DNA from: Luteimonas sp. MC1825
GTDB taxonomy: Bacteria; Pseudomonadota; Gammaproteobacteria; Xanthomonadales; Xanthomonadaceae
Assembly: GCF_014764385.1 (NCBI RefSeq)
Contig: NZ_CP061714.1
Coordinates: 868,001-932,000, forward strand
Direction of reading: 5' to 3'
DNA length: 64,000 nt
The translations under genes and the position numbers were made by a program. Position 1 is the first letter of the stretch, and each line of letters begins with the position of its first letter. Below the pieces are notes generated by a model. That model saw nothing but the letters and a program-made list of their open reading frames with translations. It ran no database searches and was not told where the DNA came from. This document shows positions 3,107-54,083 of the stretch, piece after piece.

Positions 3107-3589
3107 ATGAAGGCATGGATCCTGGCGGTTGCCACGGCCACCGGAGCCGCCGCGCTGGGCGGCATGGGGCCCACGGCGGCCGCGGAATACCAGACGCCGG
3201 CGGCGGGCGCGTGCAAGAGCGCCTTGCCGGTGTTCGACGGCAATATCCGCAGCAGGCCACGCGGGGTCCAGAACGAAGGATCCACCAATGCGTTCGTCAG
3301 CTGTGCGCAGCAGAGCGACTTCGACGACAGCCCGACCGAGGTGAGCCTGTTCCTGTTGAACGTGGGGGCCTCTGCCGCAAGCGTGAGCTGCACCCTTGTG
3401 GTCGGCGCCACGGTCCCGCTGTTCTTCACTGAAACGATCGAAGTGCCTGCCAACAGCTACGGGACGTGGCTGGTGTTCGACAGTCCCGCCGCGAACGCAT
3501 GGGACAGCAGGGCGATCGCCTATAGCTGCGAACTGCCCCCCGGCGCCGGCATCAGCCGGGTGGTGCTGACGGTCCAGGATCCGGTCTGA
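3107..3589 (+). CDS. small secreted protein of unknown function
   Basis: Not recognised. The 160-residue product begins with a Sec-type signal peptide (MKAW, a hydrophobic Ala/Gly-rich stretch, then AAAE as a likely cleavage region near residue 26). The mature part is Ser/Ala-rich with several cysteines (ACKS, VSCA, VSCT, YSCE), consistent with a disulfide-bonded periplasmic or extracellular beta protein. A GAGGAG ribosome-binding site lies just upstream of the ATG. It stands alone between hutG and the convergent parE. Confidence 0.7.
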   Translation: MKAWILAVATATGAAALGGMGPTAAAEYQTPAAGACKSALPVFDGNIRSRPRGVQNEGSTNAFVSCAQQSDFDDSPTEVSLFLLNVGASAASVSCTLVVGATVPLFFTETIEVPANSYGTWLVFDSPAANAWDSRAIAYSCELPPGAGISRVVLTVQDPV

Positions 3590-3601
3590 CCGCTGCGCGG
3601 A

Positions 3602-3622
3602 GCGGCGGCTGGCGGCCGCCGC
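3602..3622. terminator. GC-rich hairpin between convergent genes
   Basis: A 7-bp perfect stem (GCGGCGG / CCGCCGC) with a 7-base loop fills most of the 38-base gap between the secreted-protein gene and parE, which converge here. There is no T-tract on either strand, so a terminator role is only suggested by position. Confidence 0.3.
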
Positions 3623-3627
3623 GCCCG

Positions 3628-7910
<4,283 letters not shown>

Positions 7911-36777: not shown

Positions 36778-37548
36778 ATGGCTATGACGTCAGGCGAGGG
36801 CGGGAAGCCCGTGGCGCACCGGAAGCAGGTGACGGAAGGAGCGCGAGACGACGGCGACGGCATCGACCTCGCGACGGTGCCAGAACGTTTGCGGCCAACA
36901 GTCGGCTTCTTCCAGAAGAACAAGCGCAACTTCTTTGGCGCTGCGCTTCTGGTCGTACTGGGTTTCGTTGCGAACGCGGTGGCGACGGATCTGTACGAAA
37001 AGTACAAGCCATGGAAGGAAAGCGACGACGCGTTCATCGATCGCATCGTCAATGCACAAAAGGAGGAGTTCGATTCGCTCAACACCAGGTTGACCGAGCT
37101 TCGTGGCAACTTGCCTGCCGAAGGACGGGATGCCTTTCGTGAAATCGAGCGCTCCCTCGCTGGACTCGAACGCCAGAGCGCGGGACTGGTGCAGCAGCTG
37201 GAACTGGCCAAACAGGAAGTGGTGCAGCTGCGCGGGGTAGCTGAGGCGCGCGGGGGGCCGGGCGCCGGCTACGACTTTACCTTGGCATCCAGCACCAGCA
37301 TGGATCTGGCTCCGGGTGCCGTCATTGGACTGGAAAGCACAGGAAATGGGTCGGTTCGCGTCAATCTGACGTCGGAGGGCCGACAAGTCGCCAACAGTCG
37401 TCTGTTGCGTCCGGGCGAACCGTTGACCTATGTCGGCGCTCAGCGCGAGGAGTGCTTTGTCGCGCTGCGCTCGATCAACGACGGTCGGCCGGGTGCGGCG
37501 TCCTTTCAAACGGCATGCGGCACCAGCCCCTTGCTGGCGGCGGGATAA
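36778..37548 (+). CDS. single-pass membrane protein with coiled coil and Cys-pair C-terminal domain (paralogue B)
   Basis: Not recognised as a known family. The 256-residue protein repeats the architecture of 28,945-29,640: a charged cytosolic N-terminus, one transmembrane helix (about 51-70), a coiled coil (about 85-145: NAQKEEFDSLNTRLTEL, AGLVQQLELAKQEV), and a C-terminal domain with Cys226 and Cys247. GGGGGTGGGGA precedes the ATG; a second ATG lies two codons later. Its base composition is less GC-rich than the housekeeping genes. It lies directly before hsdM on the same strand, but 99 bases and a hairpin separate them. Confidence 0.7.
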   Translation: MAMTSGEGGKPVAHRKQVTEGARDDGDGIDLATVPERLRPTVGFFQKNKRNFFGAALLVVLGFVANAVATDLYEKYKPWKESDDAFIDRIVNAQKEEFDSLNTRLTELRGNLPAEGRDAFREIERSLAGLERQSAGLVQQLELAKQEVVQLRGVAEARGGPGAGYDFTLASSTSMDLAPGAVIGLESTGNGSVRVNLTSEGRQVANSRLLRPGEPLTYVGAQREECFVALRSINDGRPGAASFQTACGTSPLLAAG

Positions 37549-37607
37549 CACGGGCCCGCGTTAAAGCGTGCAACCAACCGCTGCGATTGCGAGCCACGGG
37601 GGGCATT

Positions 37608-37638
37608 ATGTGGGTCGCTGCGCGAGCGCGCCCCACAT
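37608..37638 (+). repeat. inverted repeat abutting the hsdM ribosome-binding site
   Basis: Arms ATGTGGG / CCCACAT with a 17-base interior that can pair further (CGC / GCG). It ends directly before the AGGAA that serves the GTG start of hsdM, so it could be an operator or a translation-limiting hairpin. Confidence 0.5.
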
Positions 37639-37647
37639 AGGAATTTC

Positions 37648-39504
37648 GTGAACCAAACCGCTCTTTCGGCCTTCATCTGGTCCGTCGCCGACTTGCTTCG
37701 CGGCGATTACAAACAATCCGAGTACGGTCGCGTCATCCTGCCGTTCACCGTGCTGCGGCGCCTGGACTGCGTGTTGGCGCCCACCAAGGCCAAGGTGCTC
37801 GCCGAGTTGGCCAAGAAGACCGCGGCCGGCATCAACCCCGATCCCTTCCTCAAGCGCATCGTCGGCACCGCGGGGTTCTACAACACCTCGCCCATGGACC
37901 TGTCGGCGCTGCTCGGCGACCAGGACCACATCCGCCAGAACCTTTACGCCTATGTGCAGGGGTTTTCGCCCGAGGCGCGTGACATCTTCGAGCGCTTCGA
38001 CTTCCATACCCAGGTCGAGCGCCTGGCCAAGGCCCGCCTGCTGTACCTGGTCACCGAGAAGTTCGCCAACATCGACCTGCACCCCGACCGCGTGGACAAC
38101 GCGCAGATGGGGCATGTGTTCGAGGAGCTGATCCGCAAGTTCGCCGAGCTTTCCAACGAGACCGCCGGTGAGCACTTCACCCCGCGTGAAGTCATCCGGC
38201 TGATGGTCAACCTGATCTTCATCGAAGACGACGACGTGCTGACACCCGGCAATGCCGTGGTGCGCACCGTCTATGACCCCACGGCGGGCACCGGCGGCAT
38301 GCTGTCGGTGGCGGCCGAGCATCTGCTGGCGCACAACCCCGCCGCGCGGCTCACGTTGTTCGGGCAGGAGCTCAACGACGAGTCCTATGCCATCTGCAAG
38401 GCCGACATGCTGATCCGCGGCCAGCCGGTGGAGAACATGGCGCCCGGCAACACGCTCAGCGAGGACGGTCACGCCGGCCGCCGCTTCGATTACATGCTGT
38501 CCAATCCGCCATTTGGCGTGGAGTGGAAGAAGGTCGAGAAGCTCGTGCGTGCCGAGCACGAGCAGAAGGGTTTCGATGGCCGCTTCGGCCCCGGCCTGCC
38601 GCGCGTGTCCGACGGCTCCATGTTGTTCCTGCTGCACCTGGTGGCCAAGATGTCGCCGGTGGTGAACGGCGAGGGCGGCAGCCGCTTTGGCATCGTGCTC
38701 AACGGCTCGCCGCTGTTCACCGGCGGCGCCGGCAGCGGCGAGAGCGAGATCCGTCGCTACTTGCTGGAGAACGATCTGGTGGAGGCCATCATCGGCCTGC
38801 CGAACGACATGTTCTACAACACCGGCATTGCCACCTACGTGTGGATCGTGTCCAACAAGAAGGTGGATGACCGCCGCGGCGGGGTGCAGCTGATCGACGC
38901 CAGCGGATTCTGGCGCAAGATGCGCAAGAGCCTGGGCTCCAAGCGCAAGGAGCTGGGCGAGGAACACATCGCCACCGTCACCCGCCTGTTCGGCGAGTTC
39001 ACCGAGGCCGAACTGGTGACCGCGCTGGACGCCAAGGGCCAGCCGGTGGGCGAGCCGGTGCGGGTCACCGCCACCGGCGCCGAAACCCCGCCCGTGGCAC
39101 CGGAAGGCGGACGGCTCAAGCGCGCGCCGATCAGTCGCGTGTTCGCCAACGAGGAGTTCGGCTACACCACCATCACCGTCGAGCGCCCGCTGCGCGACGA
39201 GGCCGGCAACATCGTGCTGGGCCAGAAAGGCAAGCAGAAGGGCAAGCCGCAGCCGGACAGCGCCCTGCGCGACACCGAGAACGTGCCGCTGGGGCAGGAC
39301 ATCCAGGCGTACTTCGAGCGCGAGGTGCTGCCGCATGCTCCCGATGCCTGGATCGATGAGGCGAAGACGAAGGTTGGCTACGAGATCCCGTTCAACCGCC
39401 ACTTTTATGTGTTCGAGCCTCCGCGTCCGCTGAAGGTGATCGACGCGGAGCTGAAGCAGGTGGCCGGCAGCATCATGCGGATGCTGGGGGAGATGGCGGA
39501 ATGA
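37648..39504 (+). CDS. hsdM: type I restriction-modification system methyltransferase subunit
   Basis: Adenine-N6 methyltransferase subunit of a type I restriction-modification complex. The 618-residue protein has the N-terminal helical domain (FIWSVADLLRGDYKQSEYG), TGEHFTPREV-like AGEHFTPREVIRL, SAM motif DPTAGTGG at 210-217 and the catalytic NPPF at 286-289. The C-terminal third (after about residue 420) is longer than in EcoKI HsdM and highly charged. A GTG start with AGGAA upstream was used. The stop overlaps hsdS by four bases. Confidence 0.95.
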   Translation: MNQTALSAFIWSVADLLRGDYKQSEYGRVILPFTVLRRLDCVLAPTKAKVLAELAKKTAAGINPDPFLKRIVGTAGFYNTSPMDLSALLGDQDHIRQNLYAYVQGFSPEARDIFERFDFHTQVERLAKARLLYLVTEKFANIDLHPDRVDNAQMGHVFEELIRKFAELSNETAGEHFTPREVIRLMVNLIFIEDDDVLTPGNAVVRTVYDPTAGTGGMLSVAAEHLLAHNPAARLTLFGQELNDESYAICKADMLIRGQPVENMAPGNTLSEDGHAGRRFDYMLSNPPFGVEWKKVEKLVRAEHEQKGFDGRFGPGLPRVSDGSMLFLLHLVAKMSPVVNGEGGSRFGIVLNGSPLFTGGAGSGESEIRRYLLENDLVEAIIGLPNDMFYNTGIATYVWIVSNKKVDDRRGGVQLIDASGFWRKMRKSLGSKRKELGEEHIATVTRLFGEFTEAELVTALDAKGQPVGEPVRVTATGAETPPVAPEGGRLKRAPISRVFANEEFGYTTITVERPLRDEAGNIVLGQKGKQKGKPQPDSALRDTENVPLGQDIQAYFEREVLPHAPDAWIDEAKTKVGYEIPFNRHFYVFEPPRPLKVIDAELKQVAGSIMRMLGEMAE

Positions 39505-40757
39505 GTTTGCCGAGGTATCCGGAGTACAAGGACAGTGGGGTGGAGTGGCTTGGCTATGTTCCGGAACACTGGGAAATCTGTGCTCTCAAACGAATTGCGT
39601 CTCTGCGTAGTGGGGAGAGCATCACTGCCGCATCTATAGAGCCAGAAGGCGTGTATCCGGTTTACGGAGGTAACGGCCTGCGCGGCTACACCAATGGCTT
39701 CACGCACGAAGGTCACTTTGCCCTTGTCGGTAGACAAGGTGCTCTATGTGGCAACGTGAACTACGCGAATGGAAAGTTCTGGGCTTCCGAGCATGCGGTT
39801 GTCGCCACTCCCATCAAGAAAGTCACAACGACATGGCTGGGAGAGCTCCTAAGAGCGATGAATCTCAACCAGTATTCGGTGTCGGCGGCGCAGCCGGGCC
39901 TATCCGTCGAGGCAATGGAAAATCTCGGGGTTCCTTATCCGCCTATCGGGGAGCAACTGGAAATCGCTGCGTTTCTTGAACGGGAAGGTGCCCGGATCGA
40001 CGCGCTGATCGCAGAACAGGAAAAGTTGCTGGCGCTGCTGGCCGAGAAACGCCAGGCCACCATCTCCCACGCCGTCACCCGCGGCCTGGACCCCAACGTC
40101 CCGATGAAGGACTCCGGCATCCCTTGGCTGGGCGAAGTTCCAGCGCATTGGGACCTTCTGCCGTGCCGAACAGTTGTGTCGGAGCAGATCGAAAAGAACG
40201 ATGGCGGGGTCAATGAGGACTATTTGTCCCTAGTAGCCAACGTCGGGGTCATGCCTTACGCAGAGAAAGGAGATGTAGGCAACAAGAAGCCTGAAGACTT
40301 GAGTAAGTGCAAATTGGTGGAGATTGGCGACCTTGTCATTAACAGCATGAACTACGGAATAGGCTCTTACGGACTGTCAGGCTATAAGGGTGTGTGCAGT
40401 CCCGTGTACATCGTTCTACGCACGCTGGAAGATCGCTCGATTAAGGAGTTCGTATATCGAATCTTCCAGAACCGCGATTTCCAACTTTTCGCGCAATCCT
40501 TCGGGAACGGTATTCTCGCTCATCGGTCAGCGATTGGCTGGGACACTATCAAGAATCTGCGAGTTGCGGTTCCGGGCATAGAGGAGCAGTGCAAGATCGT
40601 GGAGTTCATAGAGAAGGTCGAGGCGGAATCGGTGATAGTGACTCGGGCAGCTGGGCACGCGATCGAGTTGTTTCGAGAGTGCCGCAGCGCGCTGATCTCC
40701 GCTGCCGTCACCGGCCAGATCGACGTGCGCGGCCTAGTCGAAGCGGACGCCGCCTGA
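39501..40757 (+). CDS. hsdS: type I restriction-modification system specificity subunit
   Basis: DNA-recognition subunit that fixes the target sequence. The 418-residue protein has two target-recognition domains with matching openings (KDSGVEWLGYVPEHW and KDSGIPWLGEVPAHW) and matching central and C-terminal conserved helices (PPIGEQLEIAAFLE; PGIEEQCKIVEFIE). The two variable domains are clearly AT-richer and use rarer codons than the flanking genes, as is usual for exchanged specificity domains. The stop overlaps the next gene by one base (TGATG). Confidence 0.94.
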   Translation: MSLPRYPEYKDSGVEWLGYVPEHWEICALKRIASLRSGESITAASIEPEGVYPVYGGNGLRGYTNGFTHEGHFALVGRQGALCGNVNYANGKFWASEHAVVATPIKKVTTTWLGELLRAMNLNQYSVSAAQPGLSVEAMENLGVPYPPIGEQLEIAAFLEREGARIDALIAEQEKLLALLAEKRQATISHAVTRGLDPNVPMKDSGIPWLGEVPAHWDLLPCRTVVSEQIEKNDGGVNEDYLSLVANVGVMPYAEKGDVGNKKPEDLSKCKLVEIGDLVINSMNYGIGSYGLSGYKGVCSPVYIVLRTLEDRSIKEFVYRIFQNRDFQLFAQSFGNGILAHRSAIGWDTIKNLRVAVPGIEEQCKIVEFIEKVEAESVIVTRAAGHAIELFRECRSALISAAVTGQIDVRGLVEADAA

Positions 40758-41518
40758 TGCGAGCCGAAGACTTAATCGTTGATCGGCGCATGCCCGATAT
40801 CGAGTACCGCACTGACGCGCCAGAGGAAGTGGTCTGCCCACGCGCTACCCGGCGCGACGGCGTGCCCGTGGTCTACCTGCACAACGAGCGGGACGCCGCC
40901 CACAAAGGCTTCGTCTCGGTTGCCGGGTTCCTGCTGCGCCTGGCAAAGCGCGAGCCTAACCTGGCCTGCACCGGCTACCGCGCCAATGGACGGCAGACCA
41001 CGATCTCATTCAACAAGCACGATCGGGTGACGTTGTCGCCCCGGCTGCAGGCGTGGCTGTCGACGCTGTCTGCGCCGCGCGAGGGCAAGAGCGCAGCCGT
41101 GGTCGGCTTCCTGGCCAACCTGATGCCGTTGTACACCCCCGAGGACCACGACGGCATCTGGTGCGCGCGATCATTACATGACGGCACCCTGATCCTGCCG
41201 GTGGACGAATCGGACTGGGACGAGGAGCGGGGTACGGTGCGCGTTCACTGGCAGGGCGATGCCGCGCGGGAGTCGCTGGTGGATGGCGACCAGATCGCCA
41301 CCTTGGCGCTGGAGCGGTACGTCCACCTGCACGGCGCCGGCGCTTCAGAAGAAGCCATTGCCGCCGAGCTGTGGTTCATGGCCCGTCACTTCCACCACAA
41401 GACCGGTTGTCATGCGTACCTGCCGCAGTTGCCCGAGCCGCCGGATACGATGACGCGCCTGCGCCGGAAGGCCGGCGAGATCGGACAGGGCATCCTGACC
41501 AATCTGTTGACGCCGTGA
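40757..41518 (+). CDS. unrecognised protein encoded in the restriction island (gene X)
   Basis: I do not recognise this 253-residue protein. It has no signal peptide or membrane segment and is probably cytosolic. Visible features are an N-terminal half with VPVVYLHNERDAAHKGFVSVAGFLLRLAKRE, a middle PAEDHDGIW-like YTPEDHDGIWCARS, and a His-rich segment MARHFHHKTGCHAYLP near the C-terminus. The start overlaps the hsdS stop (TGATG) and the stop overlaps the next start (GTGA), so it is translated as part of the hsdMS transcript. No nuclease, helicase or ATPase motif is evident. Confidence 0.75.
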   Translation: MRAEDLIVDRRMPDIEYRTDAPEEVVCPRATRRDGVPVVYLHNERDAAHKGFVSVAGFLLRLAKREPNLACTGYRANGRQTTISFNKHDRVTLSPRLQAWLSTLSAPREGKSAAVVGFLANLMPLYTPEDHDGIWCARSLHDGTLILPVDESDWDEERGTVRVHWQGDAARESLVDGDQIATLALERYVHLHGAGASEEAIAAELWFMARHFHHKTGCHAYLPQLPEPPDTMTRLRRKAGEIGQGILTNLLTP

Positions 41519-42270
41519 TAGACCCCTGGCTGCGCCATGTTCCCACCATGTTCCGGGCCCTGGCCGACCCGGAACTCCGCCCTGCGGTCCCGCGGCCCGT
41601 CAATGCGTCTTTGGAAGACGCCTGCGCATATTGGGGCGCGTTGCACTATCTGCTGCGCAATGTGCTGGGCTGGGCGGATGCAGGCGGTGGCCTGGCCTGG
41701 TGGTATGCGGCCGGTAAGCCAATCGATGATTCACCGATACTCGCGCTCGTGCGCGAGGTCTGGGGCGAAGATGACCTGATCGATTTCTACGCGGCGTGGA
41801 CATGGCGCCCGGCCGGCGTTGGATACATGCAAAGCCAGGCGCAGGATCCTTTCAACGGCCCCTCACCGACCTGGCTGGCGCAGCATTCGCGCTGGCCGGA
41901 TGAGGAGTGGTGGCGGGATTTTGTCCGCCGTGGCCAAGTGCACCACCACGATCCGTTCCATGGCGGCAGCGATCCCCTGCATCTGTCCGCACATGCGGAC
42001 CCGTGCCTGGATGCGCCGTCGCCTGATCCGCTGGTGCAGGTCCACGCCGCGCAGCGCGGGGTGGTGCTGGTGACGGGTGGGCTGGCGCATTGGCTGGCCG
42101 ACCTGGAGCGGGTGCACGCGCAGTTGCCGCCATTCGGGGACCGCTCGTGGCGCATCGAGGTGTTCGATCGCACCGTCGGCTGGCTGGGGGAGTATCGCTG
42201 CAGCCGGGTCACCGGCCGCTGGTTCACGGGCAAGCACAACATCCATGTGCAGGGGAATGGACAGCCATGA
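41515..42270 (+). CDS. unrecognised protein encoded in the restriction island (gene Y)
   Basis: I do not recognise this 251-residue protein. It is unusually rich in Trp (WLRHV, GWADAGGGLAWWYAAG, WTWRPAG, DEEWWRDF) and has a His-rich stretch HHHDPFHGGSDPLHL around residue 145. No membrane segment or P-loop is evident. A GTG start overlaps the previous stop; an ATG 33 bases later is the alternative. The stop overlaps the GmrSD-like gene (ATGA), so genes X, Y and GmrSD look like one coupled unit. Confidence 0.72.
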   Translation: MIDPWLRHVPTMFRALADPELRPAVPRPVNASLEDACAYWGALHYLLRNVLGWADAGGGLAWWYAAGKPIDDSPILALVREVWGEDDLIDFYAAWTWRPAGVGYMQSQAQDPFNGPSPTWLAQHSRWPDEEWWRDFVRRGQVHHHDPFHGGSDPLHLSAHADPCLDAPSPDPLVQVHAAQRGVVLVTGGLAHWLADLERVHAQLPPFGDRSWRIEVFDRTVGWLGEYRCSRVTGRWFTGKHNIHVQGNGQP

Positions 42271-44801
42271 CGCACACGTTGACGGCCAAGGAACAACCGC
42301 TGGCCAAGATTTTCAGCGCTGACTACATGTTTTCGATTCCGGACTATCAGCGGCCCTATTCCTGGGGCGTGGACCAAGCGCAGGAGTTGCTTGATGACCT
42401 GCTTGGCTACATGCGAACAGGCGGTACGAAGCGCGAAGAGATACCGCCGTATTTTCTCGGTAGCCTGGTGCTGATCAAGAAAGAAAACTCTACTGATTCC
42501 AAGGTGGTGGACGGCCAGCAGCGACTGACCACGTTGACTCTCCTGCTGGCCTGCATCCGGGCCATCGTCACGGACGAAAACGTGCGCAGGGGCATCACGC
42601 GCCGGATCTACGACCAGGGCGACATCGTATCGGCCACCGAGAACCACTACAGGTTGACGCTGCGCGAGCGCGACAGGGAGTTTTTCCGGGAGCGCGTGCA
42701 GCACGAAGGGGGTATTGAACAGCTGGTCGCTGGCAACGAGGCCTTGTCCGACAGCCAGCAGCGCCTGCGGGACAACGCGCGACATTTCATGGCGGTGCTG
42801 CGCGACCTGGATCCGGAGTTCCTCGTGCGCCTGGTGCAGTTCATCGTCACACGTTGCTATCTGGTTGCGGTCGCCACGCCGGATCTGGATTCGGCGTACC
42901 GGATCTTCGGAGTAATGAACAGCCGTGGGCTGGACTTGACGGCCACCGACATCCTCAAGGCGGAAATCATCGGCGCCGTGCCGGAAGCGGCACGCAAGGT
43001 TTACACCAACAAGTGGGAGACGCTGGAGTCCGACCTGGGGCGCGATGGGTTTGGCGAGCTGTTCAGCCATATCCGGATGGTCTATCGCAAGGCCAAGCCG
43101 CAGGGGACCCTGCTCAAGGAATTTCGCGAGCACGTGGGTCCCGCTGATCCTTCCGTATTCGTGGACCAGGTGCTGGGGCCGATGGCCCAGGCCTACCGCG
43201 AGATCAGCGATGCCGACCATGCCAGTACCCGCCATGCCGAGGCGATCAACGACGCGCTGCGCTGGCTCAACCGGCTGGAGTTCAAGGACTGGATGCCGCC
43301 TGCGCTGGCGTACTTCACCCGGCACAAGGGCGACCCGGACGCACTGCTGGTCTTCGTGACCGGGCTGGAGCGACTGGCGTACTCGATGCTGGTACGCAAG
43401 GCGGGTGTCAATGAGCGGATCGAGCGGTTCTCCCGCCTGACCGCCGCGGTTGAGGCTGGCGACGAGCTGGCGCAGCCCGGGTCTGCGCTGCAGCTCTCCC
43501 CGCTGGAGCAGCACGAGATGTACACGATGCTGGATGGCCCGCTGTACCGCACGCATTCGGCGCGCGCGCTGGGCGTGATCCTGCTGCGTCTCGACTCGCT
43601 GGCCTCCGATGGAAGCAAGACCATGCAGCATGACCAGGTCACGGTGGAGCATGTGCTGCCGCAGACAACGCGCCCGGACAGCACCTGGGTGAAGTGGATG
43701 CCCAGCGAGCAGGAGCGCCAGGGCTGGGTGCATCGCCTGGGCAATCTGGCGCTGCTCAACCGCAAGAAGAACAGCAGCGCCAGCAACTACGATTTCGACC
43801 GCAAGAAGGACGCCTACTTCAGCAAGGGCGGAGCGTGTGCGTTTCCGCTGACCACCCAGGTGCTGCAACAGGCGGAGTGGAACGGCCCCGTACTGCAGGC
43901 ACGACAGGCGTCGCTGCTCAAGCTTGCCGAGGATCACTGGCAGCTGGCCGCGCGTGCTGCGGCTGCGAAGTCTCCGGTGACCACGACCACGTCGGACGCG
44001 GAATCGCCCGTGTTCGTGCTGGGCGGCCTCAACCACCAGCTTCAGGCGACGGGCCGGCAGGTGGATGGGCAGTTCGTGGTGTTCGCCGGTTCGCGCGCGC
44101 GCGCGGACTGGGTCGGTGTCGACGGCGGTTACGAGTTCCTGCACCAGGATCTGATCGACAACGGCACGTTGGCGCCGCCGGTGGGCGAAGCCCGCGAGTT
44201 CCTGCGCGATACCTGGTTCAGCAGCCCGAGCGCGGCCGCGGCGGTGGTCTGGGGCCGATCGGCTAATGGGCGCATGAGCTGGCGTGTGCAGGACACCGGG
44301 CAGACCTTCGCCGAGTGGGAGGAGGGTGTTCCCGCAGACGAGTCGGATGAGGACGAGGGCGAGGATGACGCCAGGGAGGACCTGTACCGCCGATTCTGGG
44401 ACCAGTTCCTGGTCAAGGCCAACTCGCGTGGCACGTTGTTCCAGCGGCGTACCCGCAGTTCGAACCCCTGGCTCGGGGTCGGCATGGGGCGTAACGGGTT
44501 CCGTCTGAATGTGCGGATGACCCGGGGCGAGGCACGGGTGACCTGTCTGATCCATCAGGAGGAAGGTGGCACTGCATTGTTCGATGTGTTGCATGCGCAG
44601 CGCGCAGCGATCGAGGCCGAGTTTGGCGCACCGCTAGATTGGGCAGCGTTGTCCGAGCGGAAGCGGTCGCGAATCCGGGCAACCACCACCGGTGGCTGGC
44701 TGGTGCCCGAGGAGCAATGGCCCGGGCTGCAGGACCGTCTGGTCGAGTTGGCCTACGGCATGGACAAGGTGTTGAGGCCCAGGATAGATGCCTTGGACTG
44801 A
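42267..44801 (+). CDS. GmrSD-like type IV restriction protein (DUF262-DUF1524-DUF4357-DUF4268)
   Basis: An 844-residue protein. The N-terminal DUF262 region has IPDYQRPYSW (from residue 24) and VVDGQQRLTTL (Asp82), the nucleotide-hydrolysing motif of GmrS. The DUF1524 HNH-type region has VEHVLPQ (His462) and NLALLNRKKNSSASN (from 493). After about 580, a DUF4357-like region (FVVFAGSRAR, FSSPSAAAAVVWGRSANG) is followed by a DUF4268-like C-terminus (from about 705; FDVLHAQRAAIEAEFG). GmrSD enzymes cut DNA with modified bases. The domain names are by eye. The gene is translationally coupled to the unknown gene before it. Confidence 0.85.
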   Translation: MTHTLTAKEQPLAKIFSADYMFSIPDYQRPYSWGVDQAQELLDDLLGYMRTGGTKREEIPPYFLGSLVLIKKENSTDSKVVDGQQRLTTLTLLLACIRAIVTDENVRRGITRRIYDQGDIVSATENHYRLTLRERDREFFRERVQHEGGIEQLVAGNEALSDSQQRLRDNARHFMAVLRDLDPEFLVRLVQFIVTRCYLVAVATPDLDSAYRIFGVMNSRGLDLTATDILKAEIIGAVPEAARKVYTNKWETLESDLGRDGFGELFSHIRMVYRKAKPQGTLLKEFREHVGPADPSVFVDQVLGPMAQAYREISDADHASTRHAEAINDALRWLNRLEFKDWMPPALAYFTRHKGDPDALLVFVTGLERLAYSMLVRKAGVNERIERFSRLTAAVEAGDELAQPGSALQLSPLEQHEMYTMLDGPLYRTHSARALGVILLRLDSLASDGSKTMQHDQVTVEHVLPQTTRPDSTWVKWMPSEQERQGWVHRLGNLALLNRKKNSSASNYDFDRKKDAYFSKGGACAFPLTTQVLQQAEWNGPVLQARQASLLKLAEDHWQLAARAAAAKSPVTTTTSDAESPVFVLGGLNHQLQATGRQVDGQFVVFAGSRARADWVGVDGGYEFLHQDLIDNGTLAPPVGEAREFLRDTWFSSPSAAAAVVWGRSANGRMSWRVQDTGQTFAEWEEGVPADESDEDEGEDDAREDLYRRFWDQFLVKANSRGTLFQRRTRSSNPWLGVGMGRNGFRLNVRMTRGEARVTCLIHQEEGGTALFDVLHAQRAAIEAEFGAPLDWAALSERKRSRIRATTTGGWLVPEEQWPGLQDRLVELAYGMDKVLRPRIDALD

Positions 44802-44845
44802 GGCAGCCGGCCCTGACGGCTTGCAATCCATTGACGGTGCTGTAA

Positions 44846-44869
44846 ATTCGCAATTCGCGAATAGCGAAT
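44846..44869. promoter_or_regulatory. palindromic operator before the HTH/nucleotidyltransferase pair
   Basis: A near-perfect 24-base palindrome: ATTCGC, then the perfect 10-base palindrome ATTCGCGAAT, then GCGAAT, with one mismatched pair of A's. It lies 14 bases before the HTH gene and 44 bases after the GmrSD-like stop. It probably binds the HTH protein. TTGACG at 44,831 may be a -35, but no clear -10 is seen. Confidence 0.65.
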
Positions 44870-44882
44870 ATCGGGTTGTGCC

Positions 44883-45413
44883 ATGGAACTCAAGCCACAG
44901 GACCTGCTGGTGCTGCTCAAGGCGGCCGCGCATCCGGGCCGGCGCTGGACCTATGCCGCGCTGGCCGAGGCGCTGTCCATGAGCGTGTCCGAGGTGCACT
45001 CCAGCGTGAAGCGGTCAGCCGCATCCGGGCTGGCTGTGATGCGCGGGCGGGGCGACTGGGCGCCCGTGGTGCCGGCCTTGCTGGAGTTCGCAGTGCATGG
45101 CGTGCGCTATGTCTGGCCCGCGGAGGCGGGGCCGGTAAAGAGAGGGGTTCCGACGTCCTTCGGAATCGAACCGCTTGCGTCCCGCCTGGCGGTCGCGCCT
45201 GGAGAAGCGCCGGTCTGGCCGCATCCGGCCGGCAGCGCCAAGGGCCCGGGCCTGCAGCCGATCTATCGCACGGCGCCCGCCTCGGCGTTGGCGGACCCTG
45301 CGCTGCATCGGCTGCTGGCCTTGCTGGACGCGCTGCGCACGGGCCGTGCGCGCGAGCGGGTCCTGGCTGCTGAGCTGCTGAAGCAGGAACTCGAGGTCGC
45401 TGATGCGGCCTGA
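44883..45413 (+). CDS. winged-helix protein, likely antitoxin/autoregulator of an AbiE-like pair
   Basis: A 176-residue protein whose N-terminal 60 residues look like a winged helix (LLVLLKAAAHPGRRWTYAALAEAL, then SVSEVHSSVKRSAASGL). The C-terminal part is uncharacterised. It overlaps the nucleotidyltransferase gene by 11 bases and has a palindromic operator upstream, the arrangement of AbiEi-type antitoxins. The antitoxin role is inferred from context; it does not show the full AbiEi signature. Confidence 0.7.
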   Translation: MELKPQDLLVLLKAAAHPGRRWTYAALAEALSMSVSEVHSSVKRSAASGLAVMRGRGDWAPVVPALLEFAVHGVRYVWPAEAGPVKRGVPTSFGIEPLASRLAVAPGEAPVWPHPAGSAKGPGLQPIYRTAPASALADPALHRLLALLDALRTGRARERVLAAELLKQELEVADAA

Positions 45414-46086
45414 CGATCCCAACCTGCCCAACCTCCGCACGATTGCGGAGGCGCTGGGCGAGCTTCGGGAGCAGGTGGTGTTCGTGGGCGGAGCGGTAAC
45501 GGGGCTGCTGGTCAGCGATCCGCTGGCGGACACGGTCCGGGCAACGGTGGATGTGGACGCTGTGGTCCGGGCCACGCTGGGTGGCTTTCACCGGATCGAA
45601 GAAGCCGTTGCGGCGCGCGGCTTTATGCGGGACATGCACAGCGGAATGATTTGCCGCTGGGTGCACCGCGAGTCTGGCGTGGTGTTCGACCTGATGCCGG
45701 TCGATCAGGATGTGCTCGGCTTTTCCAACCGCTGGTATTCCTACGCGGTTGAAACGGCTGTGCCCGTCGAAGTTGCGCCTGGATTGCGCATCCGCTGCGT
45801 ATCTGCGGTGGCGTTCGTGGCGACCAAGCTCGAAGCATTCGCGGGTCGTGGCGCGGGCGACATCCTCGCCAGCCATGACCTGGAAGATGTGCTCAACATC
45901 GTGGACGGCCGCGAAGAACTGGCGGACGAGCTGACCGCCGCACCCGCGGGCGTGCGATTGGCGGTAGCCTCGGCGTTCTCTGGCCTGCTGCAACATCGGG
46001 ATTTCGCCAATGCGCTGCCCGGAATGATTGCCGAGCCGGAGCGTACCGGCATCGTGCTTCAGCGACTCAGGGGGATGTCGCAATGA
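45403..46086 (+). CDS. nucleotidyltransferase-fold protein (AbiEii-like)
   Basis: A 227-residue protein with the nucleotidyltransferase pattern VFVGGAVTGLL (GG at 29-30) and ATVDVDAVV (Asp50, Asp52), which supply the metal-binding site, then VVFDLMPVD as the likely third carboxylate. The C-terminal helical part includes VAFVATKLEAFAGRG, a lysine/glutamate segment typical of AbiEii/DUF1814-like toxins. It is coupled to both the HTH gene and hsdR (ATGA). Toxin activity is inferred. Confidence 0.78.
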   Translation: MRPDDPNLPNLRTIAEALGELREQVVFVGGAVTGLLVSDPLADTVRATVDVDAVVRATLGGFHRIEEAVAARGFMRDMHSGMICRWVHRESGVVFDLMPVDQDVLGFSNRWYSYAVETAVPVEVAPGLRIRCVSAVAFVATKLEAFAGRGAGDILASHDLEDVLNIVDGREELADELTAAPAGVRLAVASAFSGLLQHRDFANALPGMIAEPERTGIVLQRLRGMSQ

Positions 46087-49000
46087 ACCTGCATCAGGAA
46101 CACCACTTCGAGCGCGAGATCTGCGAACACCTGGCGGCCAACGGCTGGCTCCATGCGGAAGGAGACGCAGCGCACTACGACAAGAAGAACGCGCTGTATC
46201 TGCCGGACCTGCTGGCCTGGATCGAGCAGACGCAGCCCGACAGCTGGCAGGCGCTCAGCAAGACCCATGGGCCGCAGCTCGGCGAACGCCTGGCCGATCG
46301 CATCCGCAAGAACCTCGACGAGCGCGGCACGCTGGACGTGCTGCGGCGCGGCGTGGAGATGGTGGGGCTGAAGCAGGTGCTGTTGCTGGTGCAGTTCAAA
46401 CCGGCGCTGGCGATAAACCCGGTCATCCAGACGCACTACGCCGCCAATCGGCTGCGCGTGGTGCGGCAGGTGAAGCACTCGCCCAACCGGCCCAACGACT
46501 GCCTGGACCTGGTGCTGTTCGTAAACGGGATCGCGGTGGCGACCGTTGAGCTCAAGTCCGACTTCACCCAGTCGGTGGGTGATGCGGTGGACCAGTACCG
46601 TTTCGACCGCCACCCGCAGCCCAAGGGCGGGCTGCTGGAGCCGCTGTTGTCGTTCCCGGGCGGCGCGCTGGTCCATTTCGCGGTCAGCCAGGCGGACGTG
46701 ATGATGGCCACACGCCTGACCGGCGCAGACACCTTCTTCCTGCCGTTCAACCGCGGCAACGGAGGCGGCGCCGGCAACGCGCCGGGTGCGGGCGGCGCCG
46801 CTACCCGCTACCTGTGGGAGCAGGTGTGGGCGCCTGACAGCTGGCTGGAGATCCTGGGCCGCTACCTGATCGGCAAGCGCGATGAGAAGAAGCGGCTCAA
46901 GTCGGTAATTTTCCCGCGCTACCACCAGCTCGACGCGACCCGGAAGCTCATCGCCGACGTCCATGAAAAAGGCGCGGGCGAGCGCTACCTGATCCAGCAC
47001 TCGGCCGGCTCAGGCAAGACCAATTCCATCGCTTGGACGGCGCACTTCCTGGCTGACCTGCACCGCGGCGAGCAAAAGCTGTTCGACAGCGTTCTGGTGG
47101 TGTCCGACCGCAACGTGCTGGATGCGCAGCTGCAGGAGGCGATCTTCGATTTCGAGCGCACCATCGGTGTGGTCGCCACCATTCGCGGGGAGGGCGGCAG
47201 CAAGAGTGGTGAGCTGTCGCAGGCGTTGAAGGACGGCAAGAAGATCATCGTCTGCACCATCCAGACCTTCCCCTTCGCGCTCGAGGCGGTGCAGGGGCTG
47301 GCGGCGTCAGAGGGCAAACGCTTTGCCGTAATTGCCGACGAGGCGCACAGCTCGCAGACCGGCGGCGCCGCGGCCAAGCTCAAGCAGCTGCTGAGCCCGC
47401 AGGAGTGGGCCGAGCTTCAGGACGGCGGCGAGCTCGACACGGAAACGCTGCTGGCGGCGCAGATGGGTGCGCGCACCGGCGGCAGCGGCCTGACCTATAT
47501 CGCCTTCACCGCCACGCCAAAGGCCAAGACCCTGGAGTTGTTCGGCCAGCCGGGCGCAGACGGGCTGCCGCAGCCATTCCACGTGTACTCGATGCGGCAG
47601 GCGATCGAGGAGGGCTTCATCCTCGACGTGTTGCGCAACTACACCCCGTACAGCCTGGCCTTCCGCCTGGCGCATGACGGCAAGGAGCTCGACCAGGCCG
47701 AGGTTGAGCGCAGCGCCGCGATGAAAGGGATCATGCAGTGGGTCCGCCTGCACCCGTACAACATCGCGGCCAAGGTGCAGATCGTGGTGGAGCACTACCG
47801 CGAGAACGTGCAGCCGCTGTTGGAAGGCGGTGCCAAGGCGATGGTGGTCGTGGGTTCACGCCGGGAGGCGGTGCGCTGGCAGAAGGCGATCCGTGAATAC
47901 ATCGCGCGGCGCCGGTATCCGCTGGGCGTGCTGGTGGCGTTTTCCGGTGAGATCGACGATCCGGAGAGTTTCCCGGAACCGGTGAAGGAGACGAGCACGC
48001 TGCTCAATCCCGGATTGAATGGCCGTGGCATCCGCGAGGCGTTCGCAGGCGCCGAGTACCATCTGCTGCTGGTCGCGAACAAGTTCCAGACCGGCTTCGA
48101 CCAGCCGCTGCTTTGCGGCATGTACGTGGACAAGAAGCTCGGCGGAATCCAGGCGGTGCAGACGCTGTCGCGCCTCAACCGCGCGCATCCCGGCAAGGAC
48201 ACCACCTACGTGCTGGACTTCGTCAACGACGCCGATGAAATCCTGCAGGCGTTCAGGACGTACTACGACACCGCGGAGCTGGAGGCCACTACCGATCCGA
48301 ACCTGGTGTTCGACCTGCGCGCCAAGCTCGATGCGAGCGGGTGTTACGACGACTTCGAGGTCGAGCGGGTTGCGAAGATAGAGGTCGATCCAAACACCAC
48401 GCAGGCGCAGCTTGTGGCGGCGATGCAGCCGGTCGCCGACCGTTTGCTGAAGCGCTATCGCGCCGCGCAGCAGGCAAGGGCAGCCGCCGAGGCCGGGGGG
48501 CGTGACGCGGTGTCCAAGATAGAGAAGGACAAGCTCGATGCGCTGGTGCTGTTCAAGGCCGACATGGGCGCGTTCAACCGGCTGTACGCGTTCCTGTCGC
48601 AGATGATCGACTACGGAAACACGGCCATCGAGAAGCGCTTCCTATTCTACAAGCGCCTGCTTCCGCTGCTGGAGTTCGGGCGCGAGCGTGACACCGTGGA
48701 CCTGTCCAAGGTGGTGCTGACGCACCACACGCTGCGTAACCGTGGAAGACAGGCCTTTGACCTTGCCGGGGGCGAGGCCTACAGGCTGCAGCCAATGGAC
48801 GAGATCGGCAGCGGCCACGTACAGGACAAGCAGCAGGCCTACCTGGCCGAGATCATCGATAAGGTCAACGGCCTGTTTGAGGGCGACCTGAGTGACGGCG
48901 ACCAGTTGGTCTACGTCAATGGTGTGATCAAGGGCAAGCTGCTGGAAAACGAGACCCTGCTTCAGCAAGCGGCGGACAACAGCAAGGAGCAGTTCGCGGA

Positions 49001-49202
49001 CTCGCCCGACCTGAAAGCGGCGCTGCTCAACGCCGTCATGGATGCGCTTGACGCCCATACGACGATGAGCAGCCAGGCGCTGGCGTCGGAGAAGGTTCGT
49101 GACGGTCTGAGGGACATTCTCCTCGGACCCGGCCAGCTGTACGAGGCGTTGCGTGCGGGGCGGGGTGCGGCGGCTTCCGTGGAGGCGCTGTCCCCGATGT
49201 GA
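46083..49202 (+). CDS. hsdR: type I restriction endonuclease subunit R
   Basis: Translocase/nuclease subunit. The 1,039-residue protein has an N-terminal PD-ExK nuclease region (LDLVLF with Asp142, ELK at 156-158), SF2 helicase motifs HSAGSGKT at 306-313, DEAH at 419-422 and TATPK at 476-480, and the QTLSRLNRAHPGK segment (motif VI). It is separated from hsdM and hsdS by five genes and is translated from an ATG overlapping the nucleotidyltransferase stop, so its expression probably depends on that unit's operator. Confidence 0.95.
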   Translation: MNLHQEHHFEREICEHLAANGWLHAEGDAAHYDKKNALYLPDLLAWIEQTQPDSWQALSKTHGPQLGERLADRIRKNLDERGTLDVLRRGVEMVGLKQVLLLVQFKPALAINPVIQTHYAANRLRVVRQVKHSPNRPNDCLDLVLFVNGIAVATVELKSDFTQSVGDAVDQYRFDRHPQPKGGLLEPLLSFPGGALVHFAVSQADVMMATRLTGADTFFLPFNRGNGGGAGNAPGAGGAATRYLWEQVWAPDSWLEILGRYLIGKRDEKKRLKSVIFPRYHQLDATRKLIADVHEKGAGERYLIQHSAGSGKTNSIAWTAHFLADLHRGEQKLFDSVLVVSDRNVLDAQLQEAIFDFERTIGVVATIRGEGGSKSGELSQALKDGKKIIVCTIQTFPFALEAVQGLAASEGKRFAVIADEAHSSQTGGAAAKLKQLLSPQEWAELQDGGELDTETLLAAQMGARTGGSGLTYIAFTATPKAKTLELFGQPGADGLPQPFHVYSMRQAIEEGFILDVLRNYTPYSLAFRLAHDGKELDQAEVERSAAMKGIMQWVRLHPYNIAAKVQIVVEHYRENVQPLLEGGAKAMVVVGSRREAVRWQKAIREYIARRRYPLGVLVAFSGEIDDPESFPEPVKETSTLLNPGLNGRGIREAFAGAEYHLLLVANKFQTGFDQPLLCGMYVDKKLGGIQAVQTLSRLNRAHPGKDTTYVLDFVNDADEILQAFRTYYDTAELEATTDPNLVFDLRAKLDASGCYDDFEVERVAKIEVDPNTTQAQLVAAMQPVADRLLKRYRAAQQARAAAEAGGRDAVSKIEKDKLDALVLFKADMGAFNRLYAFLSQMIDYGNTAIEKRFLFYKRLLPLLEFGRERDTVDLSKVVLTHHTLRNRGRQAFDLAGGEAYRLQPMDEIGSGHVQDKQQAYLAEIIDKVNGLFEGDLSDGDQLVYVNGVIKGKLLENETLLQQAADNSKEQFADSPDLKAALLNAVMDALDAHTTMSSQALASEKVRDGLRDILLGPGQLYEALRAGRGAAASVEALSPM

Positions 49203-51236: not shown

Positions 51237-52364
51237 TTACCGCGGCAGGCCGCGTGGCAGCCGCAGTATGAACGTCGTGGTGCCCTCGTCGGATGCGGCA
51301 TGGATGGTGCCGGCATGGGCCTTCACGATCTGGCTGACGATGAACAGGCCCAGCCCGAGGCTTGCCTGCTCCAGCTCGCCACCCGACAGGCCACCGCGCC
51401 GCAGCGGTTCGAACATCAGCTCGAGGGTCTCGCGCGGGATCGGCCTGCCGGCATTGGCAACGCAAATCTCGACGCCGTCGTCGTGCTCGCGGAGGACGAC
51501 CCGGATCACACCGCCGTCAGTGCCGTACTTCCTGGCATTCACCACCAGATTGGCCATGGCCTCGCGGATGCTGCCGGCGTCGAACATGCCGTGCAGCGCG
51601 TCCGGGGCTTCGAACTCGATGCGCGCGGCCGGCATCGCCGTCTTCAGCTGGTCGATCTCGTCGCGGCAGGCGTGCGCAAGGTCCACGTGCTCCTTCTGCA
51701 CCTGGAAGCCGATCCCGAACTGCGAGCGGTTGTAGACCAGCAGTTTGTCGAGCAGCAGGTTCATGCTCTCGCCGCTGCGGATCAGGCGTTGCGCGGCCTT
51801 GTCCAGCGCGGCATCGCCGGCCATGCCCGCGATCTGTTCCGCGGTCATCATGATCGAGGTCAGCGGGGTGCGCAGGTCGTGGCCCAGCACGCCCAGGAAG
51901 ATGCTGCGCCAGCGCTCCACCTCGTCGGCGTAATGGCTCACCGACTCGGCAATGGCCTCGTCGATCGCCTCGTTGAACCGGGCGATCTCGCGGGTGGCTT
52001 CGGGTTGCCCTGGGGTATCCGCCGCCCAGGCCCGCAGCACCGACGCGCGCATCGCGCGGTACTCGGCAACCAGGCTCGAGATGCTGAACCCGCTGTGCGC
52101 ACGGTGCAGCGCGTGGGTGGCGGCCGCCGACCGCGAGTGTTCCGCCGGCATCGGCGCGTTGCCTTCGGACTTGGCGATCTCCTCGGCGCGCGTCTGCGCC
52201 GTGCGCAGGTCGCTGACGATGGCCTGGATGATCTCGGGCAGGTGGTCGCGCAAGGTCACATGGTCGAGCGGCGTGTCCACCTCGATCGACTTCGCGAACT
52301 CGATGGCCTGCTCGATGATGGATTCGGCACGTTGTTCGATGAAGTCCGCCAGCCCGCTCTGCAT
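51237..52364 (-). CDS. sensor histidine kinase with RsbRD-like N-terminal domain
   Basis: A 375-residue cytosolic kinase. The N-terminal ~160 residues are helical and resemble the RsbRD N-domain (SIIEQAIEFAKSI, AEYRAMRASVLRAW). The HisKA domain has the phosphorylated His in GHDLRTPLTSI, and the HATPase domain has ANLVVNARKYG and GLGLFIVSQIVKAH. No membrane segment is present. It is divergent from the KaiC-like gene at 52,566, with 201 bases between starts that hold no recognised element. The start was set at MQSGLADFIEQ; its ribosome-binding site is weak. Confidence 0.87.
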   Translation of the reverse strand: MQSGLADFIEQRAESIIEQAIEFAKSIEVDTPLDHVTLRDHLPEIIQAIVSDLRTAQTRAEEIAKSEGNAPMPAEHSRSAAATHALHRAHSGFSISSLVAEYRAMRASVLRAWAADTPGQPEATREIARFNEAIDEAIAESVSHYADEVERWRSIFLGVLGHDLRTPLTSIMMTAEQIAGMAGDAALDKAAQRLIRSGESMNLLLDKLLVYNRSQFGIGFQVQKEHVDLAHACRDEIDQLKTAMPAARIEFEAPDALHGMFDAGSIREAMANLVVNARKYGTDGGVIRVVLREHDDGVEICVANAGRPIPRETLELMFEPLRRGGLSGGELEQASLGLGLFIVSQIVKAHAGTIHAASDEGTTTFILRLPRGLPR

Positions 52365-52565
52365 GCCGTGTGTCCATTCAGGGGAATCCCCGCCGCATCT
52401 TACGCGGTGCGGCCGCGGCCGGCGCCGGGTCCGGGCGGGCGGATTCACCGCCTGTCGACAAGCGTGAACCGGTGCAAACGCGCCACCCTCATGGTCGATA
52501 CGGCTTTCACACCTGCCTGTTCATAGTCCGGCACACACGGAATCCGCACACCGGGGCCCCAGTCA

Positions 52566-54083
52566 ATGGCACATGCAGAAGCTTCCCCAGACCGCGACGA
52601 CGCGCGCATCTCCACCGGCAACACGGGCCTCGACGACATCCTCGGCGGTGGGCTGGATGCCGACCGGATGTACCTCTACGAGGGTCGCCCCGGGGCAGGC
52701 AAGACCACCCTGGCCCTGCAGTTCCTGCTCGACGGCGCGCGACGCGGGGAGCGCGTGCTGTACATCACCCTGTCCGAAACCGAGCGCGAACTGCAGCTCG
52801 TGGCCCGGCGCCATGGCTGGAACCTGGCCGGGGTGGACATCGTGGAACTGGTGCCGTCGGAGGCGATGCTCGACCAGAGCCAGGAGATCACCCTGCTGCA
52901 CCCCGCGGAGCTCGAGCTCGGCGAGACCACGCGCCTGATCCTTGAACAGGTGAGCACGGTGAATCCGGTCCGGCTGGTCATCGACAGCCTGTCGGAGCTG
53001 CGCCTGCTGGCGCAGAGTTCGCTGCGCTACCGGCGCCAGGTGCTCGCGCTCAAGCAGTTCTTCGCCAACCGCAACTGCACGGTGGTGCTGCTGGACGACA
53101 TGACCTCGCAGCAGAACGACCTGCAGTTGCACTCGATCTCGCACGGCGTGGTGTTGCTGGAGCAGTTGGCCATCGACTACGGCGCGGAGCGCCGCCGGCT
53201 GCGCGTGATCAAGATGCGCGGCATCGAGTTCCGTGGCGGCTACCACGACATGAAGATCGTGAAGGGCGGCATCGAGGTCTATCCACGGCTGGTCGCCTCC
53301 GATCACCAGGCCGAGTTCTCGAGCGACTTCACGCCCAGCGGCAACGGCGAGCTGGACAAGCTGCTGGGCGGTGGCCTGGAACGCGGCACCAATGCCTTGC
53401 TGATCGGTGCCGCCGGCGTGGGCAAGTCCTCGCTGGCGCTGACCTACGCCATCAGCGCCGCGCAGCGCGGCGAGCGCAGCGCGATCTTCGCCTTCGACGA
53501 GGGGCGCGGCACCATCGAAGCGCGCTCCAGGGCGCTCGGGCTCGACCTGGCTTCGGCGATCGACGATGGCCTGGTGCTCTTCCAGCAGATCGATCCGGCC
53601 GAGATGTCACCCGGCGAATTCGCGGCCATCGTGCGCCGGCGCGTGGAGCGCGACGGCGCGCGGATGGTGGTGATCGACAGCCTCAACGGCTATCTCAACG
53701 CCATGCCGGACGGGCGTTTCCTGATCCTGCAGATGCACGAACTGCTGACCTACCTTGCCCAGCAGGGCGTGGTGACCATCCTCGTGCTCGCCCAGCACGG
53801 CATGGTCGGCCCGGTCGAGGCACCGCTGGACATCAGCTACCTGAGCGATGCGGTGGTGATGCTGCGTTACTTCGAGCATGCCGGCGTGGTGCGGCGGGCA
53901 TTGTCTGTGGTGAAGAAACGCAGCGGCTTCCACGAGCAGACGATCCGCGAGTTCCAGCTGGGCAGGCACGGCGTGCTGGTGGGACAGCCACTGACGGACT
54001 TCAGTGGCGTGCTGTCCGGTATGCCTACCTACACCGGCGGCAGCGAGCCCCTGTTGCCTGGTAACGCCCGTGCCCCGGAGTGA
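52566..54083 (+). CDS. double-domain KaiC-like ATPase (first copy)
   Basis: A 505-residue protein with two RecA-like KaiC domains: Walker A GRPGAGKT at 40-47 and GAAGVGKS at 281-288. Each domain ends with a KaiC-type strand (VIKMRGIEF; VVKKRSGFHEQTIREF). The segment matching the KaiC phosphorylation loop reads ISYLSDA, keeping a Ser where KaiC has Ser431 and a Tyr where it has Thr432 (alignment by eye). It overlaps the hybrid kinase by 14 bases. There are no kaiA or kaiB genes here, so a clock role is not implied. Confidence 0.88.
   Translation: MAHAEASPDRDDARISTGNTGLDDILGGGLDADRMYLYEGRPGAGKTTLALQFLLDGARRGERVLYITLSETERELQLVARRHGWNLAGVDIVELVPSEAMLDQSQEITLLHPAELELGETTRLILEQVSTVNPVRLVIDSLSELRLLAQSSLRYRRQVLALKQFFANRNCTVVLLDDMTSQQNDLQLHSISHGVVLLEQLAIDYGAERRRLRVIKMRGIEFRGGYHDMKIVKGGIEVYPRLVASDHQAEFSSDFTPSGNGELDKLLGGGLERGTNALLIGAAGVGKSSLALTYAISAAQRGERSAIFAFDEGRGTIEARSRALGLDLASAIDDGLVLFQQIDPAEMSPGEFAAIVRRRVERDGARMVVIDSLNGYLNAMPDGRFLILQMHELLTYLAQQGVVTILVLAQHGMVGPVEAPLDISYLSDAVVMLRYFEHAGVVRRALSVVKKRSGFHEQTIREFQLGRHGVLVGQPLTDFSGVLSGMPTYTGGSEPLLPGNARAPE

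Follow-up and report, generated by a model that had tools for sequence, protein, structure and literature searches.

We analysed a 64,000-nucleotide stretch of the genome of Luteimonas sp. MC1825 (contig NZ_CP061714.1, positions 868,001 to 932,000 of the forward strand), here called the window, in which a type I restriction-modification locus encloses five additional genes between hsdS and hsdR. Window positions are used throughout, and related loci carry the labels L002 to L092. The locus consists of the following genes and features, among them a helix-turn-helix (HTH) gene and a nucleotidyltransferase (NTase)-like gene:

37648..39504, plus strand: hsdM, GTG start, 618 amino acids (aa), type I N6-adenine methyltransferase (Pfam N6_Mtase, 1.6e-56; HsdM_N)
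39501..40757, plus strand: hsdS, specificity subunit, 418 aa (Pfam Methylase_S, two stretches)
40757..41518, plus strand: X1, 253 aa, no named family in the libraries searched
41515..42270, plus strand: X2, GTG start, 251 aa, no named family in the libraries searched
42267..44801, plus strand: GmrSD-type nuclease gene, 844 aa (Pfam GmrSD_N (DUF262), GmrSD_C, DUF4357, DUF4268)
44821..44849, plus strand: inferred promoter of the HTH module, TTGCAA, 17 bp, AAATTC (by eye, from a six-locus comparison)
44846..44869, no strand assigned: palindrome beginning within the -10 hexamer, inferred operator of the HTH protein
44883..45413, plus strand: HTH gene, 176 aa (PADLOC PDC-M21A, 1.3e-38; alignment)
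45403..46086, plus strand: NTase-like gene, 227 aa (PADLOC PDC-M21B, 7e-64; alignment)
46083..49202, plus strand: hsdR, 1039 aa (Pfam HSDR_N, SWI2_SNF2, T1R_D3-like)

The coordinates, gene order and overlaps given in a preliminary description of this locus all proved right on recheck. In the first unit, hsdM overlaps hsdS by 4 bases, hsdS overlaps X1 by 1, X1 overlaps X2 by 4 and X2 overlaps the GmrSD-type gene by 4; a gap of 81 bp separates the end of the latter from the start of the HTH gene, and in the second unit the overlaps are of 11 bases (HTH/NTase) and 4 bases (NTase/hsdR). The distance from the hsdS stop to the hsdR start, described as about 5.3 kb, measured 5325 bp. The HsdM, Methylase_S, HsdR, GmrSD_N, GmrSD_C, DUF4357 and DUF4268 domains all scored above their Pfam cut-offs, and the GmrSD-like gene of that description is real by the same measure. 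Methylase, specificity, nuclease and translocase domains are present in the hsd genes, which are assigned to type I restriction-modification as a predicted activity; the combination of GmrSD_N (DUF262) bearing DGQQR with GmrSD_C (DUF1524) assigns the 844-aa protein to GmrSD (type IV restriction) as a predicted nuclease, and this protein matches DUF262-domain and SspE chains in PDB. HsdM contains NPPF at residue 286, HsdR a D...ELK stretch at 139-158, GSGKT at 309 and DEAH at 419, and the GmrSD protein DGQQR at 82 and HVLP at 462; these are familiar motifs of such proteins.

Related loci were collected by a search seeded with HsdR and not with the extra genes. HsdR matches at E ≤ 1e-100 were obtained in 45 of 297 genomes of the family, of which 26 reached at least 67% identity, and a sample of the class (369 genomes) yielded three further HsdR proteins at 68-69% identity. 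The mapped loci comprise HsdR-seeded loci, X1-seeded loci and nine plasmid loci drawn from 14 records with at least 60% identity (the unopened plasmid matches were H4, H9, H10, H12 and any with less than 60% identity, H14-H30 being only listed). Both hsdS and hsdR were found in 43 loci; L058-L066 stand outside this set, and L054, where hsdS is cut off, stands outside the count of hsdS-hsdR gaps. That gap was at least 150 bp in 39 of the 43 loci (median 2697 bp), a proportion that is not a population estimate because the set includes X1-seeded loci, the broken L042 (hsdS fragment only) and L057, which is counted as insert-bearing with its small open reading frames (ORFs). L042, from the same genus, is a decayed copy in which the GmrSD gene, the PDC-M05 pair and hsdR are kept, hsdS is reduced to its fragment and hsdM was not found.

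No insert was present at the hsdS-hsdR junction of the remaining four loci. Three of these (L053, L084 and L086) have a gene between hsdM and hsdS instead, and L088 has no insert in either gap. In L053, L084 and L086 it is hsdS that makes the 4-base overlap with hsdR, and elsewhere M05, SoFic, GmrSD and S14 genes make it. Inserts are thus the norm but vary, with none individually required, and since hsdS overlaps hsdR as well, the NTase/hsdR overlap is the ordinary junction of this operon, not the special coupling that had been proposed.

The cargo is of two main kinds, the first (slot 2) consisting of GmrSD, GIY-YIG/DUF4357, NucS-like/DUF5655 or HNH genes and the second (slot 3) of the HTH-NTase pair, an MNT-like pair, Fic or IrrE/DUF4411 genes; SLFN, AbiGi, AAA and unassigned genes were placed in neither. 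When the 131 ORFs between hsd genes were clustered, outgroup loci included, they fell into 53 clusters. The recurrent ones were X1 (13 loci), GIY-YIG/DUF4357 (PDC-S14; 10), X2 (9), NucS-like/DUF5655 (PDC-S18; 8), the MNT-like pair PDC-M05 (A gene 8, B gene 4, with more found by direct search), SoFic (7), GmrSD (6 and 3), the PDC-M21 NTase (5), AbiD (4, between hsdM and hsdS) and the IrrE-like, DUF4411 and Schlafen-like clusters (3 each). Among these, PDC-M21, PDC-M05, PDC-S14, PDC-S18, SoFic, AbiD and the GmrSD kin match PADLOC models for defence systems or candidates, the four PDC candidates reportedly originating with Payne and colleagues in 2024. The hsd genes thus flank other defence-type genes that are replaceable among relatives. 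The junction receives the same few cargo families in Gamma-, Beta- and Alphaproteobacteria, X1 also in Thermodesulfobacteriota, often with overlaps of 1-8 bases (the 68-base gap given for the M05 B gene of L002 reflects a partial alignment). A single module occupies the hsdS-hsdR junction in five of the nine plasmid loci (X1 in L080, S18 in L081, M21 in L082, GIY-YIG in L085 and DUF4268 in L087), and L084, L086 and L088 are the plasmid loci with no insert there. In the Allochromatium plasmid locus (L083:3808-6675), VapC-type toxin genes occupy the hsdM-hsdS gap as well as the hsdS-hsdR gap. In L003 (10759-15830) X2 is shortened and the S18 matches lie in two pieces around genes for a transposase (rve) and an SBF transporter, which is an insertion into the cargo.

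Changes of cargo were counted on an HsdR tree of 45 of the 52 rows (L060-L066 dropped, L058 and L059 as outgroup, L006 and L012 without usable HsdR). The fewest changes amounted to at least 18 for slot 2, at least 15 for slot 3, 10 for X1 and 4 for X2, on a quick tree that has eight open forks, some long branches and some labels from partial matches (GmrSD in slot 2 of L048, L058 and L087) or fragments (S18 in L003). The cargo turns over on a slower-changing hsd frame. Its order was uniform: in all 19 loci with both kinds between hsdS and hsdR, representing 13 combinations of which a few differ only by an undetected gene, the nuclease-like gene precedes the toxin-antitoxin-like gene. Matches below 80 bits were left out of this count, so that L003, with S18 in pieces, was not included. 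Such an order was not met in the literature searches made.

For the X1 protein, no Pfam family scored above its cut-off, one weak match to CON_HrpB reaching 14.5 bits versus 27, and X2 had no Pfam match at all; neither protein had a PADLOC or NCBIfam match at E ≤ 0.1, and comparison of both with solved folds gave no clear structural match. Homologues at E ≤ 0.001 numbered 276 for X1 and 60 for X2. Compared with L002, non-synonymous (dN) and synonymous (dS) divergence were 0.067 and 0.597 for X1 and 0.097 and 0.383 for X2; as dN lies far below dS for X1, X2, the HTH gene and the NTase gene against the relatives compared, all four are real genes, X1 and X2 being conserved proteins under purifying selection. 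X2 was carried by 11 of the 297 family genomes (two copies being incomplete), in every case downstream of hsdM-hsdS. A similar HsdR accompanies it in ten and the eleventh locus ends at a contig edge after hsdM-hsdS-X2 (association of X2 with HsdR across the family genomes, Fisher p 4e-11). The gene following X2 was of nuclease type in all nine intact loci with a readable next gene. Of the 24 distinct places that hold X1, 16 are downstream of hsdS, 15 of these immediately after it, and in the Geoalkalibacter plasmid locus (L080) X1 is the sole gene between hsdS and hsdR. X2 and the close relatives of X1 are therefore linked to an hsd locus of this kind, and these two families, to which none of the searched libraries gives a name and which have no published one, are what is new here. 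The core shared by X1 proteins is the C-terminal part of about 145 residues, of which the shorter relatives entirely consist. Distant X1 relatives outside hsd loci, at about 9.8-10.4 kb in their records, adjoin MrcB_N/NOV_C (L032) or AAA_21 and DUF4276 (L035), neighbours that point to a possibly more general defence role for the C-terminal half of X1.

The HTH and NTase genes are adjacent and match the A and B models of PDC-M21, and the NTase has a GG...DVD motif at 29-52. AbiE, named for this pair in the preliminary description, was a poor fit, with AbiEii reaching 18.1 bits against a Pfam cut-off of 22.5 and AbiEi giving no match at E ≤ 0.1, and the pair is better called PDC-M21. Ahead of the HTH gene, the six readable loci (the window, L007, L009, L010, L054 and L082) share TTGC-- followed after exactly 17 bases by a second hexamer, which is GATATT in four loci, CATATT in L054 and AAATTC in the window, and in all six the palindrome begins within this second hexamer. 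The palindromes are near-identical in the window, L007, L054 and L082, the last being a Betaproteobacterial (Mitsuaria) plasmid locus; L010 has a symmetrical variant, L009 a decayed one, and L006 is masked there. A 26-base pattern made from the sites of the window and its relatives, with up to three mismatches allowed, matched the window at this site alone (against a mean of 0.00 over 100 shuffles) and likewise nowhere else in the 2.9 Mb genome. In an alignment, the HTH proteins of L009 and L010 diverge from the others at about residues 37-43, perhaps the recognition helix. The operator of its own that had been claimed for the HTH/NTase/hsdR unit is thus borne out as a promoter-like site plus palindrome conserved with the module in other loci, and we read the pair as an autoregulated module that would bring its own promoter, with the palindrome as predicted operator, to hsdR. 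In L054 (minus strand, 3368-3998 of that locus) hsdR is immediately preceded by the HTH gene with its palindrome and no NTase was found, so that L054 offers a natural case for whether the HTH protein alone regulates hsdR. More generally, this short promoter-palindrome, seemingly travelling with its HTH protein, is a target for asking whether docked toxin-antitoxin-like pairs control restriction.

NTase matches were present in 112 plasmid records, three of which were opened beyond L082 (L090-L092, positions 3405-5447, from S. meliloti, A. fabrum and Paracoccus). Each has an HTH-sized gene, an M21-type NTase and an overlapping third gene in the position that hsdR takes here, named protein phosphatase 2C in one record, and no hsd gene is annotated within the 8.7 kb shown. 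As related NTases occur in these three records without annotated hsd genes, the NTase is not tied to restriction.

We consider it probable that the locus is an hsdM-hsdS-hsdR operon into which other defence genes dock, mostly at the junction of hsdS and hsdR and more rarely between hsdM and hsdS. The comparison of gene content suggests that the five extra genes would be interchangeable anti-virus modules rather than parts of one new machine. The preliminary description had proposed the latter: one nested eight-gene system, its first promoter serving modification, the HTH/NTase promoter gating restriction and GmrSD acting as a second nuclease. The tight overlaps in two units with a promoter-like site and palindrome between them would fit such a system, as would the HTH/NTase pair standing immediately 5' of hsdR in L006, L007, L009, L010 and L082 too. 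However, a search for the eight-gene order showed that no other mapped locus holds all five extra genes, the modules come and go 10-18 times (X2 four times) on the HsdR tree, and the overlap with hsdR is generic. Loci with hsdMSR free of extra genes, which that description had set against its own proposal, do exist at the hsdS-hsdR junction (the four named above), only L088 being empty in both gaps. We regard the integrated system as very unlikely. Highly improbable, too, is an ordinary defence island in which unrelated genes landed between the hsd genes by chance. Defence genes do cluster generally (PMC12255303), and in the stretches compared the genes flanking the locus in the window have no counterparts at corresponding positions of the other hsd loci, but a few families recur at one junction across classes and, for X1, across phyla, with frequent short overlaps and a single order in 19 of 19 loci.

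Several points weigh against the docking-site reading. X1 relatives lie away from hsd genes in eight of the 24 places (L014-L017 and L032-L035), the insert of L057 is only two ORFs of about 90 codons, and stacked modules may have a complementary joint function. Slot families also occur between hsdM and hsdS (S14 in L084 and L061, SoFic in L059). The slots were named after the data had been seen, the 19 ordered loci are related, and the plasmid loci, never holding both kinds of cargo, provide no check; the uniform order is for these reasons a description and not yet a test. Compatible with docking is a role of X1 and X2 as true subunits or regulators of this type I complex, or as partners to it or to the docked nuclease, for example as adaptors fastening that nuclease to HsdM2S or as a restraint on HsdR. 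Their position downstream of hsdM-hsdS or hsdS, and X1 alone with hsdMSR in L080, speak for this, whereas X1, X2 or both are absent from most loci of the HsdR tree, so that they are not obligate, and a third of the X1 places are elsewhere; we put such a partnership forward tentatively, as a possibility. A stricter version, in which a widespread type I operon acts as an ordered defence rack and has, between conserved hsd genes, an X1/X2 adaptor position by hsdS, a nuclease position and a toxin-antitoxin position by hsdR, with X1 and X2 tying nucleases to the methylase complex, seems to us rather unlikely.

With docking as the working explanation, three docked layers would be stacked here: X1-X2, the GmrSD nuclease, and the HTH-NTase pair with its promoter-like site. 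Judging from their families, HsdMSR would restrict unmodified DNA and GmrSD would cut modified-base DNA that escapes HsdR, while the HTH/NTase pair could be a back-up of toxin-antitoxin type that its HTH protein represses. As this pair is overlapped by hsdR, part of hsdR expression would come from the pair's promoter, by position here and not as a conserved plan. X1 most likely works with HsdMS/HsdR, and X2 most likely serves the docked nuclease or links it to the hsd complex. That this type I clade commonly carries cargo between hsdS and hsdR, with a tendency towards a fixed order, is a testable rule obtained from a single locus, and for the same reason the unnamed junction genes (X1, X2 and the unassigned singletons of relatives) are good candidates for new defence genes.

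The rlo and mlo genes of Campylobacter are said to have been described originally by Miller and colleagues in 2005. In Campylobacter jejuni, these ORFs occupy the gaps on both sides of hsdS, towards hsdR and towards hsdM, and include the DUF262 gene rloF (PMC5183652, PMC4619093); genes likewise stand between hsd genes there, in another host group, and the available portions of these reports do not mention X1, X2 or the HTH/NTase pair. GmrSD-family genes also lie within a type I operon in the case of TgvAB from the VPI-2 locus of Vibrio cholerae, which is active against phages with hypermodified genomes and protects independently of HsdR nuclease activity (PMC11411939). In contrast to that two-protein GmrSD, the protein described here is a single fused chain of 844 aa that includes DUF4357 and DUF4268, and its locus carries additional cargo. 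In the RptR-RMS-DarTG island of E. coli, DarTG2 lies between hsdS and hsdR, at what the authors suggest is a potential recombination hotspot (PMC12255303). A toxin-antitoxin pair at this junction and a repressor with palindromic sites are common to both; RptR, however, is the first gene and controls the island promoter, whereas the HTH gene here is internal with its own palindrome. GmrSD homologues are reported to carry DUF4268 and DUF4357 and to have type I genes as their most frequent defence neighbours (PMC4619093). As rlo, TgvAB and DarTG2 are published cases of genes placed between hsdS and hsdR, the layout is not new in kind and is a rather full example of a published type. Among catalogued candidates, PADLOC PDC-M21 corresponds to the HTH/NTase pair, and PDC-M05, PDC-S14 and PDC-S18 fill the same junction in relatives, X1 and X2 lying outside that library at the threshold given above. 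The AbiE type IV toxin-antitoxin system likewise combines a DNA-binding partner with a nucleotidyltransferase-like protein, from which the present pair differs in the AbiEi and AbiEii scores reported above.

The G+C content per kb was 0.59-0.69 across window positions 37001-49000 and 0.65-0.75 in the rest of the window, lower across the hsd locus as for an acquired island. Two divergently oriented genes lie just 3' of the locus (51237-54083), one for a KaiC-like ATPase and the other for a histidine kinase that has an RsbRD_N-like match.

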